Source of the DNA: Bacteroidota bacterium
GTDB taxonomy: Bacteria; Bacteroidota; Bacteroidia; Chitinophagales; BACL12
Assembly: GCA_029571985.1 (NCBI GenBank)
Contig: JAKQVC010000047.1
Coordinates: 1 to 64,000 of the forward strand
Reading direction: 5' to 3'
DNA length: 64,000 nucleotides
Shown here: piece by piece, positions 10,864-37,234 of the stretch
Numbering within the stretch: the first letter of the stretch is position 1
How the letters are laid out: each line of letters starts with the position of its first letter
Made by a program: the position numbers and the translations under genes
Notes under the pieces: model-generated
What the model saw: only the letters and a program-made list of their open reading frames with translations
Told to the model about the DNA's origin: nothing
Databases searched by the model: none

Positions 10864-11139
10864 TTTGTTGAAGCATATTGATTTGGCATCTTGGTTTGTG
10901 GATCGATGCAATCTTGCATTCTGTAAATTTAGATATTTACTGTTCCACTCTCGAATGCAACGGTTGTAACTGATTCTGATTTTGTGCTAGTCTGCGACTA
11001 CCAAAAGGATAAGACCAGCTACATGATTATACACCACTAGGTTTAAAAAAATGGTGATAATTATATTTAAACTATATTTACAGGAGAAATTATAAACTAT
11101 TTGATTACTCTGGTTTATAATTCATTTAATATTTATATT

Positions 11140-11922
11140 ATGAATATAAATAAACAATCTAAATTAAACCTACTTCTCTCAAGCTACCCCGTTGGCGTAG
11201 TCCTTCAGACTTCCTGGCTGGAAAAGGAAGGTTACAGCTATGCATTACAACAGAGCTATAGAAAGAACGGCTGGCTAAAATTGTTGGGACGCGGCGCCAT
11301 GATCCGTCTGAGCGATAAAGTTGTAAGCTATACAGGAGGCATATATGCCTTGCAAGTCCAGTCAGGTCTTATGATTCATCCGGGAGCTAAAACAGCGCTA
11401 AACCTCTTAGGGAAGGCACATTACCTGGAAATGTCAGCGAGGCGTGTTAGTCTCTTCGGGGGAGAGAAGGAACGCCTGCCAACCTGGTTGCGAAACTATG
11501 ATTGGGGCCAAAAAATAGCTTATTACCCAACGTCATTTCTACCAGCTGACCTAGGCCTAGTTCAAATAGACCTCGGAAATTTCTCCATCCAAGTATCCGG
11601 CGGTGCGCGCGCGATTCTGGAATGCCTCTACCTGGCACCCGGAAAAATGGAATTGCAGGAATGTTATGAGTTGATAGAAGGGCTCAACGACTTGCACCCC
11701 GGAAAGGTGCAACAACTTCTTGAAGTCTGCACTTCCATAAAGGTTAAGCGATTATTCCTCTATTTGTCGGAACGAGCTGGCCATGCATGGTTTAAAAAAT
11801 TGGATTTGGAAAAAATAGATTTAGGGAAAGGCAAACGCAGCATTGTAAAAAATGGAGCTTACATAGAAAAATATCAAATTACTGTCCCAAGAGCACTAGC
11901 ACAGAATGAAACAGAGATATAG
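11140..11922 (+). CDS. AbiEi-type antitoxin (type IV TA)
   Basis: The product is 260 residues from the ATG at 11140. A TTG 39 bp upstream would add a hydrophobic tail unlike the family. Residues 1-70 form the winged-helix DNA-binding domain (GVVLQTSWLEKEGYSY, KNGWLKLLGRGAMIR). The rest is the AbiEi C-terminal antitoxin domain (GLMIHPGAKTALNLLGKAHYL, SGGARAILECLYLAPG, LERAGHAW-like strand). In AbiE systems this protein represses the operon and neutralises the AbiEii nucleotidyltransferase toxin, giving abortive infection of phage. Its stop overlaps the toxin start by 17 bp, as usual for the pair. Confidence 0.85.
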   Translation: MNINKQSKLNLLLSSYPVGVVLQTSWLEKEGYSYALQQSYRKNGWLKLLGRGAMIRLSDKVVSYTGGIYALQVQSGLMIHPGAKTALNLLGKAHYLEMSARRVSLFGGEKERLPTWLRNYDWGQKIAYYPTSFLPADLGLVQIDLGNFSIQVSGGARAILECLYLAPGKMELQECYELIEGLNDLHPGKVQQLLEVCTSIKVKRLFLYLSERAGHAWFKKLDLEKIDLGKGKRSIVKNGAYIEKYQITVPRALAQNETEI

Positions 11923-12810
11923 AGATCAGGTGTCGCTCTTGCTCAGGGTTTTACCGGAATTAACAAAGGAAAATTGCTTTGCGCTGCATGGCGGAACAGC
12001 AATCAATTTATTTATTAGAGATATGCCGAGATTATCAGTAGATATTGATCTTACATATATCCCTATTGCTGATCGCGCAACATCTCTTCAAAATATTCAA
12101 GAGGCGCTAGGTAGAATAAAAGGATATGTTGCTGCCGCCATAAAGAACATTAAAATAACAGACAACATAAGTTCTGACGCTGCCAAGCTGTTTTTCTCTT
12201 TAAACGGGGTTCAAATAAAACTCGAAGTCAACCTTATTAAGCGAGGAGCTTTGTTTGCGCCTGTAATAATGGGTCTATGTAAGAAGGCACAAGAGGAGTT
12301 CGATTCCTTTTGTGAGATGCAGATCGTTTCGTTTGGCGAACTGTACGGCGGAAAAATTTGTGCAGCTCTGGACCGCCAACACCCCGGGACTTGTTTGATG
12401 TGAAGTTGCTGCTGGATAATGAAGGCATCACAGAGGAGGTAAAAATTGGATTTATATTATTCACTGTGAGTGGTAATAGCGTAATGCGTAAGATGATTAA
12501 TCCAAATTTGCATGATCAAAAAGATGCTTTGGCGCATAATTTCGAAGGCATGACTAACGAGTCATTCATCTATTCAGATTTTGAGGAAACGCGGTTGAAA
12601 TTGATTGATAATCTTAGCAATGTCTTGACGCAAGGAGATCGGGAATTTCTATTAAGCGTAAAAGGCCTCACACCACAATGGGATATTTACGATTTTAAGC
12701 AATTTCCCGCAGTGCGTAGAAAATTGCTCAATTTAGAGGCTTTTAAAAAAGCCAAACCTGAGCAATATCAGGAAATATATGAGCATTTAAAACTTGCATT
12801 AAAACGCTAA
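11906..12810 (+). pseudogene. AbiEii nucleotidyltransferase toxin, frameshifted
   Basis: Two overlapping frames together give a complete AbiEii toxin of about 301 residues. Frame one (11906-12403) holds the nucleotidyltransferase signature HGGTAINLF (28-36) and RLSVDIDL (42-49), and ends ...GKICAALDRQHP. Frame two continues RDLFDVKLLLDNEGITEE... to 12810. The family reads straight through KxxAxxDRxxPRDLFD, so one base is missing in the run CCCC at 12382-12385 (one C more restores the frame). Either the gene is inactivated, or the assembly or read lost a base in a homopolymer. The active-site motifs lie in the first part, but the truncated product would lack the whole C-terminal domain. Confidence 0.82.
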
Positions 12811-17630: not shown

Positions 17631-17663
17631 AAAGGCTTTGAAGAATTTTTCCTCAAAGCCTTT
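17631..17663. terminator. Terminator after array unit 1
   Basis: Inverted repeat AAAGGCTTTGA (17631-17641) / TCAAAGCCTTT (17653-17663), followed on the minus strand by a T-rich stretch. It is the last hairpin of the tRNA-Phe-derived array. Confidence 0.65.
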
Positions 17664-17752
17664 ATTTTTCGTGGTGTGGGGCGGGATCCCACCCTCCTGC
17701 ACTGCGTTACGGAGTGCGGCAGGGAACCGCGACACAAGGATTTACTTAAAAT

Positions 17753-17791
17753 AAAAAAGAGGCTGCCTACTTTTGAGACAGCCTCTTTTTT
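17753..17791. terminator. Terminator after array unit 2
   Basis: A 13-bp stem, AAAAAAGAGGCTG (17753-17765) with CAGCCTCTTTTTT (17779-17791), symmetrical and flanked by A and T runs. Its core is the same as the hairpin after unit 3. Confidence 0.75.
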
Positions 17792-17875
17792 CTGTGGTGT
17801 GGGGCGGGATCCCCGCCTGCTCCGCTGCGCTCCGCAGTCGGGCAGGGAACCGCGACACAAGGATTTACCTAAAAT

Positions 17876-17911
17876 AAAAAAGAGGCTGCCTACTTTTGAG
17901 ACAGCCTCTTT
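17876..17911. terminator. Terminator after array unit 3
   Basis: AAAGAGGCTG (17878-17887) pairs with CAGCCTCTTT (17902-17911). The loop is the same as in the unit 2 terminator, showing that the terminator was copied together with the repeat. Confidence 0.7.
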
Positions 17912-18001
17912 GTTCGTGGTGTGGGGCGGGATCCCACCCTCCTGCACTGTGTTACGGAGTGCGGCAGGGAACCGCGACACAAGGATTTTTGTACATAATA
18001 A

Positions 18002-18025
18002 AAGAGGCTAAAAATTTAACCTCTT
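18002..18025. terminator. Terminator after array unit 4
   Basis: AAGAGGCTAAA pairs with TTTAACCTCTT with one mismatch, with a short A/T loop. On the minus strand it is followed by TTTATTATG. Confidence 0.55.
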
Positions 18026-18116
18026 CTTATGTGGTGTGGGGCGGGATCCCCGCCTGCTCCACTACGTTGCGCAGTCGGGCAGGGAACCGCGACACAAGGA
18101 TTTTTGTAAAATAAAA

Positions 18117-18143
18117 AAGCGAGGTTGATGTTCAACCTCGCTT
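18117..18143 (-). terminator. Intrinsic terminator of tRNA-Phe
   Basis: A perfect 12-bp stem AAGCGAGGTTGA / TCAACCTCGCTT with a three-base loop, followed on the minus strand by a T tract. It starts six bases after the tRNA 3' end. Confidence 0.8.
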
Positions 18144-18148
18144 CTCCG

Positions 18149-18221
18149 TGGTGTGGGGCGGGATCGAACCGCCGACACAAGGATTTTCAGTCCTTTGCTC
18201 TACCAACTGAGCTACCGCACC
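18149..18221 (-). tRNA. tRNA-Phe (GAA)
   Basis: A 73-nt cloverleaf. It has acceptor GGTGCGG, TA, D arm GCTC...GAGC, anticodon arm GGACTGAAAATCC with anticodon GAA, variable loop TTGTG-like, T arm GGCGG-TTCGATC-CCGCC, 3' acceptor CCACACC and discriminator A. CCA is not encoded. The acceptor stem has one C5-A68 mismatch (GGTGCGG against CCACACC), while all other stems pair. The 3' half is the source of, or has exchanged sequence with, the four partial copies downstream. Confidence 0.93.
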
Positions 18222-35114: not shown

Positions 35115-36458
35115 ATGGACACCGACAAAACCCCATCCGCATTCGACCAGGTGAGCAATTGGTTCAGTAGGTCTGTTACCGTTAAACTATTTATGATTCT
35201 GCTTCTGGCGCTGCTGCTGCTCATACCGGCCAGCATGATTACAGGTTTGATTCACGAACGACAATCATTGCAAACCGAATCTGTGCAGGAAGTTTCCAGC
35301 AACTGGGCGATGGACCAGGAAATCGTAGGACCTGTAATTACCATTCCTGTTATGAGAACGCAGGCAAATGGCGCGGGCGGATGGATTGAATATGTGCAAT
35401 TACTTCCGGAAAATCTGACGATTAAAGGCAATGTCACGCCCGAACAGTTACACAGAGGTATTTATGAAACTATTGTATATCGCACGAAATTAGATGTTGC
35501 CGCAACTTTCGACACCACATTTGTGCGCTCTGTTATTGGCGAGAACGACAGGATAGACTGGTCGAAGGCAGTAATTTCCATTGGTATACCCGACATGCGC
35601 GGCATCGAGCAAGAAATCCTCTTGCAAATGAATGGAAAAGCCTATACCGTAAATCCGGGAATTCCGGATTATGCCATTGTAAAAAGTGGTGTTTCAGCGG
35701 TTATTCCGCTGGCATCAATTATGGATGGCAGCAGCCTCGATGTGCAATTCTCATTGGCCTTGCAAGGCAGCTCAATTTTAAGTTTTCTGCCAGTCGGCAA
35801 AAACACACATGTTACCTTAAACTCCAAATGGCAGGATCCGGCCTTTACCGGCGCATTTTTACCGGATAGCAGAACCGTAAACAGTGATGGATTTTCAGCC
35901 GACTGGAAAGTGCTGCAACTAAACCGCAACTTCCCGCAAGTGTGGACAGGCAGCACCTATAATGATGAATTGACCACAACCGGCTTCGGGGTTGAATTAA
36001 TAAATGGCGCCGACGACTATCAAAAATCCATGCGTTCGGTTAAATATGCTTTACTCACGATTGCACTTACTTTTTTAACATTCTTTCTAACAGAAACCAT
36101 CAATAAAAAACGCATTCACCCATTCCAATATATTCTGGTTGGACTGGCACTATGTCTATTTTATATTTTATTGATTTCACTGTCGGAACAATTAACATTT
36201 GACACAGCTTATTGCATTTCATCACTTGTCATTGTTGCAATGATTACCTTATACAGCAGAACATTTTTTGCCCTGTGGAAACACAGCTTATTGTTAATGC
36301 TGGTGCTAATAGGTTTATACGGATATCTATACGTCACACTCCAAGCCACCGATTACGCACTACTAATCGGCGCAGCTGGATTAACGGTAATGTTAGGCTT
36401 GACGATGTATCTGACAAGAAGGGTAAATTGGTATGGTTCTTTGAGGAATGAGGAATAA
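35115..36458 (+). CDS. creD: Cell envelope integrity protein CreD
   Basis: The product is 447 residues long. It has one N-terminal span (MILLLALLLLIPASMI), the CreD signature ITGLIHERQSLQTESVQEVSSNWA and GPVITIPV, and a large periplasmic region. Five to six C-terminal spans follow (about 310-440) with TFLTFFLTETINKKRIHPFQYILVGLALCLFYILLISLSEQ. E. coli CreD is an inner-membrane protein of the CreBC regulon that affects envelope integrity and beta-lactam tolerance. A beta-lactamase gene lies 545 bp away, divergently oriented, which is suggestive only. Confidence 0.9.
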   Translation: MDTDKTPSAFDQVSNWFSRSVTVKLFMILLLALLLLIPASMITGLIHERQSLQTESVQEVSSNWAMDQEIVGPVITIPVMRTQANGAGGWIEYVQLLPENLTIKGNVTPEQLHRGIYETIVYRTKLDVAATFDTTFVRSVIGENDRIDWSKAVISIGIPDMRGIEQEILLQMNGKAYTVNPGIPDYAIVKSGVSAVIPLASIMDGSSLDVQFSLALQGSSILSFLPVGKNTHVTLNSKWQDPAFTGAFLPDSRTVNSDGFSADWKVLQLNRNFPQVWTGSTYNDELTTTGFGVELINGADDYQKSMRSVKYALLTIALTFLTFFLTETINKKRIHPFQYILVGLALCLFYILLISLSEQLTFDTAYCISSLVIVAMITLYSRTFFALWKHSLLLMLVLIGLYGYLYVTLQATDYALLIGAAGLTVMLGLTMYLTRRVNWYGSLRNEE

Positions 36459-37219
36459 GGAGAAAGGAATGAGGAAAAAGGAATAAGGAATGAGAGAGCC
36501 TGCTCTGTAGCGAAAGTTTACGGAGCGAAGTGGAGAAAACTTTCTGCTTCAGAGAGGAATGAGGAATAAGGAGAAAGGAATGAGGAATAAGGAATAAGGA
36601 ATGAGAGAGCCTGCTCTGTAGCGAAAGTTTACGGAGCGAAGTGGAGAAAATTTTCTGCTTCAGAGAGGAATGAGGAATAATGCTTAATTACATTTCGCTC
36701 TTGCGTTCGGCTAGATTGCTTCGCCGCTCCTTGGGTCGCGGCTCGCAATGACGATGATGCGTTTAACTTACGTGGTTGCAAAGCAACCACCTCTCGGTTA
36801 AGTTTCCCGTCATTGCGAGCAAGCCTGACGGCGCGCAGCAGAGGCAGGCGAAGCGAAGCAATCTTGCTGATGGTTAGTTAACTTTTAATTCGAAGGATTT
36901 TTTATAGGAATGATGCTCTTGCGTATCAGCCAGATTGCTCCACCACACAACCCTCGACGAAGTCGATTTGCATTCGTCTCACCATTTAAAAAAGGAATAA
37001 GGAATGAGGAATAAGGAATAATGCGCAATTGCATTCCACTCTTGCGTATCAGCCAGATTGCTCCACAACGCACTCCCCTCGACGAAGTCGATTTGCATTC
37101 GTCTCACCATTTAAAAAAGGAATGAGGAATGAGGAATAAGTAATGAGGAATGCAAATAAAATTGCACTACCTGATACCTGATACCTGATACCTGATACCT
37201 GATACCTGCTACCTGATAC
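36459..37219. repeat. Repeat-dense intergenic region
   Basis: The stretch contains RAGGAAT heptamers (36455-36500, 36555-36605, 36665-36675, about 36994-37015 and 37119-37150). Two copies of a long hairpin with centre GCGAAGT lie at 36503-36554 and 36614-36665. A segment nearly identical to 42-190 lies at 36662-36790 and includes hairpin GTGGTTGC-AAA-GCAACCAC. An inverted CGTCATTGCGAG repeat at 36808-36862 contains a GCGCAGC centre. A segment with TCGA-CGAAG-TCGA is duplicated (36920-36990, 37045-37115). Seven 7-bp CTGATAC units (one CTGCTAC) lie at 37171-37219. No gene is seen. Confidence 0.8.
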
Positions 37220-37234
37220 CCATTAATAAATACT

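Follow-up and report, generated by a model that had tools for sequence, protein, structure and literature searches.

Introduction

Tyrosine-integrase elements use the 3′ halves of tRNA genes, bring a replacement 3′ end with them and leave 3′-fragment copies behind. Homing endonucleases usually carry an extra DNA-binding module beside the nuclease domain. The tyrT repeats of E. coli (rtT RNA) are arranged in tandem downstream of a tRNA and include part of that tRNA's 3′ end; to our knowledge, they hold no T-loop hairpin and are linked to no nuclease family. REP elements are small palindromes (PMC3733652). SegB of phage T6 is a GIY-YIG homing endonuclease that cuts within tRNA genes, prefers the motif RAWTSGAAC and drives recombination-dependent tandem amplification of a tRNA segment (PMC13096335). 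The reverse complement of the SegB motif, GTTCSAWTY, corresponds to the tRNA T loop, and it is this same sequence that hairpins interrupt in the genome studied here.

The 64-kb stretch of DNA that we analysed (hereinafter the window) contains a tandem array of hairpin-interrupted partial tRNA copies next to its tRNA-Phe gene. Comparison with other tRNA loci of the same genome, with relatives and with a cross-phylum sample of GIY-YIG loci leads us to propose that the array is probably a relic, an ORF-less series of tRNA-homing cassettes.

A tandem array of interrupted tRNA-Phe 3′ halves

The sole tRNA gene of the window, identified with ARAGORN, is an intact tRNA-Phe(GAA) at 18148–18221 on the minus strand (Rfam tRNA score 68.7 bits). 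Four tandem copies of its 3′ half lie downstream on the same strand, bearing out what an earlier note on this DNA had described, and each is 73 nt long, starting at about tRNA position 36 and running through to the 3′ end. In unit 1 (18031–18103), unit 2 (17916–17988), unit 3 (17794–17866) and unit 4 (17671–17743), numbered outward from the gene, a 35-nt hairpin splits the T loop between GGTTC and GATCC, which confirms the earlier observation of same-place T-loop hairpins of about 35 nt in two alternating types. Sequence comparison assigns units 1 and 3 to hairpin type B and units 2 and 4 to type A, giving the outward order B-A-B-A; identity amounts to 34/35 between the A hairpins, 31/35 between the B hairpins and 24–26/35 between an A and a B hairpin.

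All four units lack one T-stem G (TCGCGG vs TCGGCGG in tRNA-Phe). This common deletion points to a single founder and supports amplification of one unit, one of the origins suggested earlier. Amplification of a single A-B dimer was considered as a full account of the array and rejected, because the spacers after units 2 and 3 are identical at 47 of 50 positions even though they join different hairpin types, and because unit 1 has a B hairpin nearer to one at the tRNA-Arg locus of this genome (33/35 identical) than to its counterpart in unit 3. TRF reports a period of 123 nt with 3.8 copies (score 591), and the full repeat units, 115–123 bp long, differ from one another by 12–30%. Since the units are 73-nt copies of the adjoining gene, a chance origin is ruled out. 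An assembly artefact, which the earlier note had held out as a possible refutation, is unlikely in view of the divergence between units, the presence of similar copies on several contigs and the occurrence of the cassette in isolate genomes.

In an Rfam scan of the array region, the tRNA is the only real match and the remaining ones fall far under the gathering thresholds. No GIY-YIG ORF was found inside the array and no GIY-YIG match anywhere on the contig of the window, and we therefore describe the array as a relic or non-autonomous derivative rather than a complete element.

Two other features of the window are recorded here. At 11101–12810 (plus strand), an AbiEi antitoxin gene (PF11459, PF17194) is followed by an AbiEii-like gene in two frames, with 11906–12403 matching AbiEii and 12358–12810 continuing in a different frame; together they are probably a decayed type IV toxin–antitoxin pair. 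Positions 36443–37220 hold tandem repeats of the AGGAATA/GAATGAGG type with higher-order units of 111 and 125 nt and a palindrome-like GTAGCGAAAGTTTAC stretch, and GAATGAGG and TACCTGA repeats similar to this cluster occur at C4:93262 (L019).

The units lie upstream of the ancestral tRNA-Phe terminator

Each copy had been thought to carry its own intrinsic terminator. A terminator scan scored a stem-loop with a T run after three of the four units, namely unit 2 (17879–17911, minus strand), unit 3 (17753–17791, minus strand) and unit 4 (17631–17663, minus strand), for which the claim stands; the stem-loop after unit 1 (AAGAGGTTAAATTTTTAGCCTCTTTTATT) is weaker and lies under the scan threshold. 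A further stem-loop with a T run (inverted repeat I6; 18117–18143, minus strand) directly follows the intact tRNA-Phe gene.

The position of the ancestral terminator can be read from two relatives, a congener (G043) and a family member (G056), in which the tRNA-Phe locus is orthologous, the upstream gene being 49% and 36% identical, respectively. The G056 terminator directly 3′ of tRNA-Phe reaches a score of 33 to the last terminator of the array and at most 13.5 to the others, and the corresponding G043 terminator scores 23 to the last and at most 8.5 to the others. The stem-loop that now follows the intact gene matches the relatives' terminators worse than the last one does and is not the ancestral terminator. 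It is the terminator after unit 4 that best resembles them, indicating that the units entered between the T loop and the original 3′ end. Such an insertion point would be expected of a cassette that restores its tRNA. Filled tRNA-Phe sites (L105, L112 and L129) and empty ones are both present among relatives, and the site is a putative nuclease target.

Interrupted copies recur at other tRNA genes

Genome-wide, 33 tRNA genes over the Rfam cut-off were listed, and the loci of 30 were inspected together with their flanks. This search beyond the window, which the earlier note had proposed, revealed T-arm-broken partial copies at seven further tRNAs, so that eight are now affected: Phe (four copies), Arg(CCG) (three), Glu (four, two of them upstream of the tRNA), Ser(GGA) (two), Ser(TGA), Pro, Lys and Leu. 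Insertion between GTTC and GA is common to the Phe, Arg, Glu, Ser and Pro copies; the Lys copy has GTTT at the insertion point, and the Leu insert is located at the border between T stem and loop.

When up to three mismatches are permitted, a third type of hairpin (type C, GCCTGCNYGACGCAGGAGGGCAGG) is matched at seven places in the 4.0-Mb genome, all seven in T loops of copies of the Glu and the two Ser tRNAs, and the reversed-pattern control has no match genome-wide. Full-length A and B hairpins are found in this genome only at the Phe and Arg copies. The core shared by A and B is matched with one mismatch in the Lys copy; its single exact match outside tRNA copies stands among unrelated sequence and lacks the hairpin, and the remaining core matches whose sequence was inspected are unrelated coding or repeat sequence. 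A dispersed, REP-like distribution with many intergenic copies was not found for type C or for the A/B hairpins in the genome-wide search. The likeness between the Phe and Arg hairpins and the occurrence of type C at both Glu and Ser loci suggest that hairpins pass, as it appears, between tRNA loci. By eye, loci with a common hairpin type also have similar T stems (GGCGG in Phe and Arg; GGGG in Glu and Ser).

Interrupted copies are linked to small GIY-YIG genes

The genome contains five small GIY-YIG genes; two others sit in larger frames of 614 aa (UvrC-sized) and 465 aa. Three of the small genes, one of them interrupted by a stop codon, reside in the tRNA-Glu region, where the tRNA and a terminator are followed by a GIY-YIG gene and a broken copy, and then by a second terminator, GIY-YIG gene and broken copy. 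A small GIY-YIG gene also directly follows tRNA-Val. The fifth (L070; C132:55000–60500) has no tRNA and is flanked by long palindromes, CCTGCCCTGAAG...CTTCAGGGCAGG, that are repeated several times.

Among the best 30 GIY-YIG loci in the order, about 11 show the tRNA cassette arrangement or its mirror, in which a broken copy and a GIY-YIG gene stand ahead of the intact tRNA, and the tRNAs concerned are Pro, Asp, Met, Ala and Val; the members of a separate GIY-YIG subfamily in the order show no tRNA. In three relatives (L105, L112 and L129), tRNA-Phe itself is followed by a GIY-YIG gene and then by a 3′ part with a T-loop insert, and in L105 and L112 there is a distinct terminator after tRNA-Phe. 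The array search in 40 relatives returned just tRNA-Phe matches and no second Phe T-loop array at that sensitivity, which argues that the units are not conserved as RNA.

Arrays of the same general design do exist at other tRNAs. ORF-less tandem arrays occur at tRNA-Gly in one relative (G097), where four copies recur with a 111-nt period, and at tRNA-Val in the congener, placing the array of the window in a recurring kind. At tRNA-Phe, the congener has two short upstream copies with a different hairpin after GGTGCGGT. Tandem arrays of 5′ tRNA halves are located upstream of the intact tRNA at L097 (G080) and L238 (G097), with periods of about 98 and 111 nt; they repeat the apparent tRNA promoter region, and the arrays may be transcribed. 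The genomes G025, G009 and G041 hold a dispersed perfect palindrome, TCCCGATAGCTATCGGGA, that lies far above its reversed-pattern control genome-wide and, unlike hairpins A–C, is not restricted to tRNA copies as far as seen.

The proteins encoded by the tRNA-linked genes are minimal. PF01541 is over its cut-off in all five tRNA-linked GIY-YIG proteins tested, and residues Y6, Y17, G19, R27 and E64 are invariant across 14 GIY-YIG proteins. The tRNA-linked proteins measure 78–104 aa, and in those tested Pfam detects nothing beyond the nuclease domain and the T5orf172 model that overlaps it, with no separate DNA-binding domain.

To obtain an independent sample, 84,980 species genomes were scanned with four tRNA-linked GIY-YIG proteins, yielding 80 loci that were picked by protein alone. 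A tRNA lies on the same strand within 400 nt upstream in 59 of the 80 loci; for 66 of the 80, the upstream sequence extends to 250 nt or more. In the copy test, the GIY-YIG ORF is followed at 44 of 56 loci by a copy of the tRNA 3′ end, for which the chance expectation is about 0.002 per locus, and the anticodon arm, the T arm or both are broken in 42 of these 44 copies, the other two retaining both arms intact. According to gapped alignments, TCCCG..CGGGA-like hairpins take the place of the anticodon arm in many cassettes of the Met, Ala, Val, Pro and Asn types, and in Asp cassettes TCC..GGA hairpins break the T arm. The cassette is present in isolate genomes, e.g. that of Niabella ginsengisoli (L164).

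The tRNA isotype clusters on the phylogeny of the nuclease. On a GIY-YIG domain tree, built from few columns and with many unresolved forks, the isotype changes 19 times as compared with 38.6 times after shuffling (none of 200 shuffles as low). An Asp lineage has members in Ignavibacteriota, Chlorobiota and Cloacimonadota, and in an Asn pair a Thioalkalivibrio-titled bin groups with a Bacteroidetes bin; bins may be misassigned. Isotype-specific lineages that extend across phyla are the pattern that homing endonucleases would show.

A homing-cassette model and its alternatives

In this bacterium and many of its relatives, a cassette consists of a tRNA, a terminator, a GIY-YIG ORF and a hairpin-broken partial copy of the same tRNA. 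We propose the following model for these loci. The nuclease would cut the tRNA gene at a fixed arm, the T loop in this genome and the anticodon arm in many relatives, and recombinational repair from a cassette-bearing copy would then insert a unit carrying a replacement tRNA 3′ end and terminator, so that the tRNA would stay functional. The original 3′ end would be pushed downstream with a hairpin at the former cut site, and the displaced copies would persist because the hairpin would destroy that site; successive rounds would generate tandem arrays. At tRNA-Phe, the nuclease gene would have gone missing and left only short units, and the acceptor part of unit 4 would be the displaced original 3′ end of tRNA-Phe.

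Several features speak against the cassette model. The Phe array has no GIY-YIG ORF; the nuclease has only about 80–100 aa and no added DNA-binding module; the restored intact tRNA keeps the presumed target, leaving self-immunity without an explanation; the anticodon arm instead of the T arm is broken in many relatives; broken copies stand ahead of tRNAs with no intervening GIY-YIG gene; palindromes similar to the hairpins are dispersed in some relatives; and GTTCGATCC in tRNA-Phe agrees with the SegB motif at only 8 of 9 positions.

The copies could instead be plain tandem duplicates of the tRNA 3′ end, produced by slippage or unequal crossing-over, with mobile palindromes (REP/RPE-like) entering later and being tolerated only in non-functional copies, and with the GIY-YIG genes as mere passengers of hot tRNA loci. 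Small TCCCGN8CGGGA palindromes are indeed dispersed above control in several relatives, copies with no nearby GIY-YIG gene exist, among them broken copies upstream of tRNAs with no intervening GIY-YIG gene, and survivor bias is to be expected given that intact essential tRNAs tolerate no inserts. We nevertheless regard duplication followed by palindrome insertion as unlikely, since in this genome hairpin C is confined to T loops of tRNA copies and full A/B hairpins to the Phe and Arg copies, copies of the Phe, Arg, Glu, Ser and Pro tRNAs share one insertion point, and GIY-YIG genes follow a tRNA in 59 of 80 loci (66 testable) and form isotype-specific lineages.

The earlier note had also considered a structured RNA that mimics part of a tRNA. 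Such a functional RNA, acting as a T-arm/acceptor mimic or as a decoy for tRNA-cleaving nucleases, would be transcribed by read-through. The units do fold, with modest z-scores of -1.2 to -3.6, some of their terminators are good, and some upstream arrays in relatives repeat the apparent tRNA promoter region. Against an RNA function, no promoter-like site was found within the array, no Rfam family was matched, the congener's tRNA-Arg copy is decayed, and copies differ between species in tRNA, arm and hairpin, all of which makes a conserved regulatory RNA quite improbable.

We give similarly little credence to the idea that the hairpin is a retention device, whereby crossing-over between the repeated sequences 5′ of the hairpin would carry it into the essential tRNA with lethal effect and so make loss of the cassette hard. 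The T-loop type leaves only about 20 nt of safe homology 3′ of the hairpin, in line with such a role, as is the finding that nearly all copies are broken in at least one arm; the idea is purely inferential and compatible with the cut-site explanation, and both could act jointly.

Scars of serial tyrosine-integrase insertion at tRNA-Phe, the remaining origin put forward earlier, are very improbable: although integrases use tRNA 3′ halves and a 48-nt intact 3′-half copy, probably an attachment-site boundary, is found in G056, that copy retains an intact T loop, whereas the T loop is interrupted in all four units of the window and leaves no intact identity block at the crossover, the T-stem deletion and the insertion point are common to all four, and no integrase was found among 13 ORFs checked with Pfam between 9.8 and 25.9 kb of the window. 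The G056 copy belongs to a pair of loci on contigs C160 and C502 (L133 and L132), where a GGTACAACATAGGTACAAC stretch follows tRNA-Phe and the same stretch lies beside the 48-nt copy on the other contig; the two loci are probably opposite ends of one integrative element and form a contrast to the hairpin-broken copies.

Comparison with known systems

We suggest, tentatively, that minimal GIY-YIG cassettes and their ORF-less derivatives may constitute an undescribed and widespread class of bacterial mobile element that would home to tRNA genes of the chromosome, reconstitute the tRNA that they enter and mark the displaced copies with a transferable cut-site hairpin. If true, this would account for the abundance, in Bacteroidota and neighbouring phyla, of broken tRNA copies and small GIY-YIG genes and would show how a selfish nuclease can live within an essential gene. 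Searches of open-access full texts yielded no description of tRNA-linked GIY-YIG cassettes in bacteria or of hairpin-broken tRNA copies. The nearest kind is that of free-standing tRNA-associated GIY-YIG homing elements, and hairpin-broken copies and ORF-less arrays are undescribed in the literature that could be searched.

Unlike tyrosine-integrase elements, the Phe array has no integrase nearby as far as found, carries a hairpin inside the T loop at the junction and is built of units of ~120 bp. Like REP and Rickettsia palindromic elements, the hairpins are small palindromes inserted in genes; unlike those elements, the type C hairpin is restricted here to the T loops of tRNA copies, and the hairpins are tied to tRNA copies and GIY-YIG genes. 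With the SegB-type enzymes of T-even phages, the system shares a GIY-YIG nuclease beside tRNAs, a T-loop motif and tandem amplification of a tRNA segment. It differs from SegB systems in its location on a bacterial chromosome, in a minimal protein of 80–100 aa that would be the cleaving enzyme, in the distal, hairpin-broken copy of part of the host tRNA and in the existence of ORF-less arrays. By analogy, the simplest account is that the tRNA-linked bacterial cassettes display a bacterial relative of SegB behaviour, and the arrays, if this is true, would be a bacterial counterpart to the newly described amplification by phage SegB.
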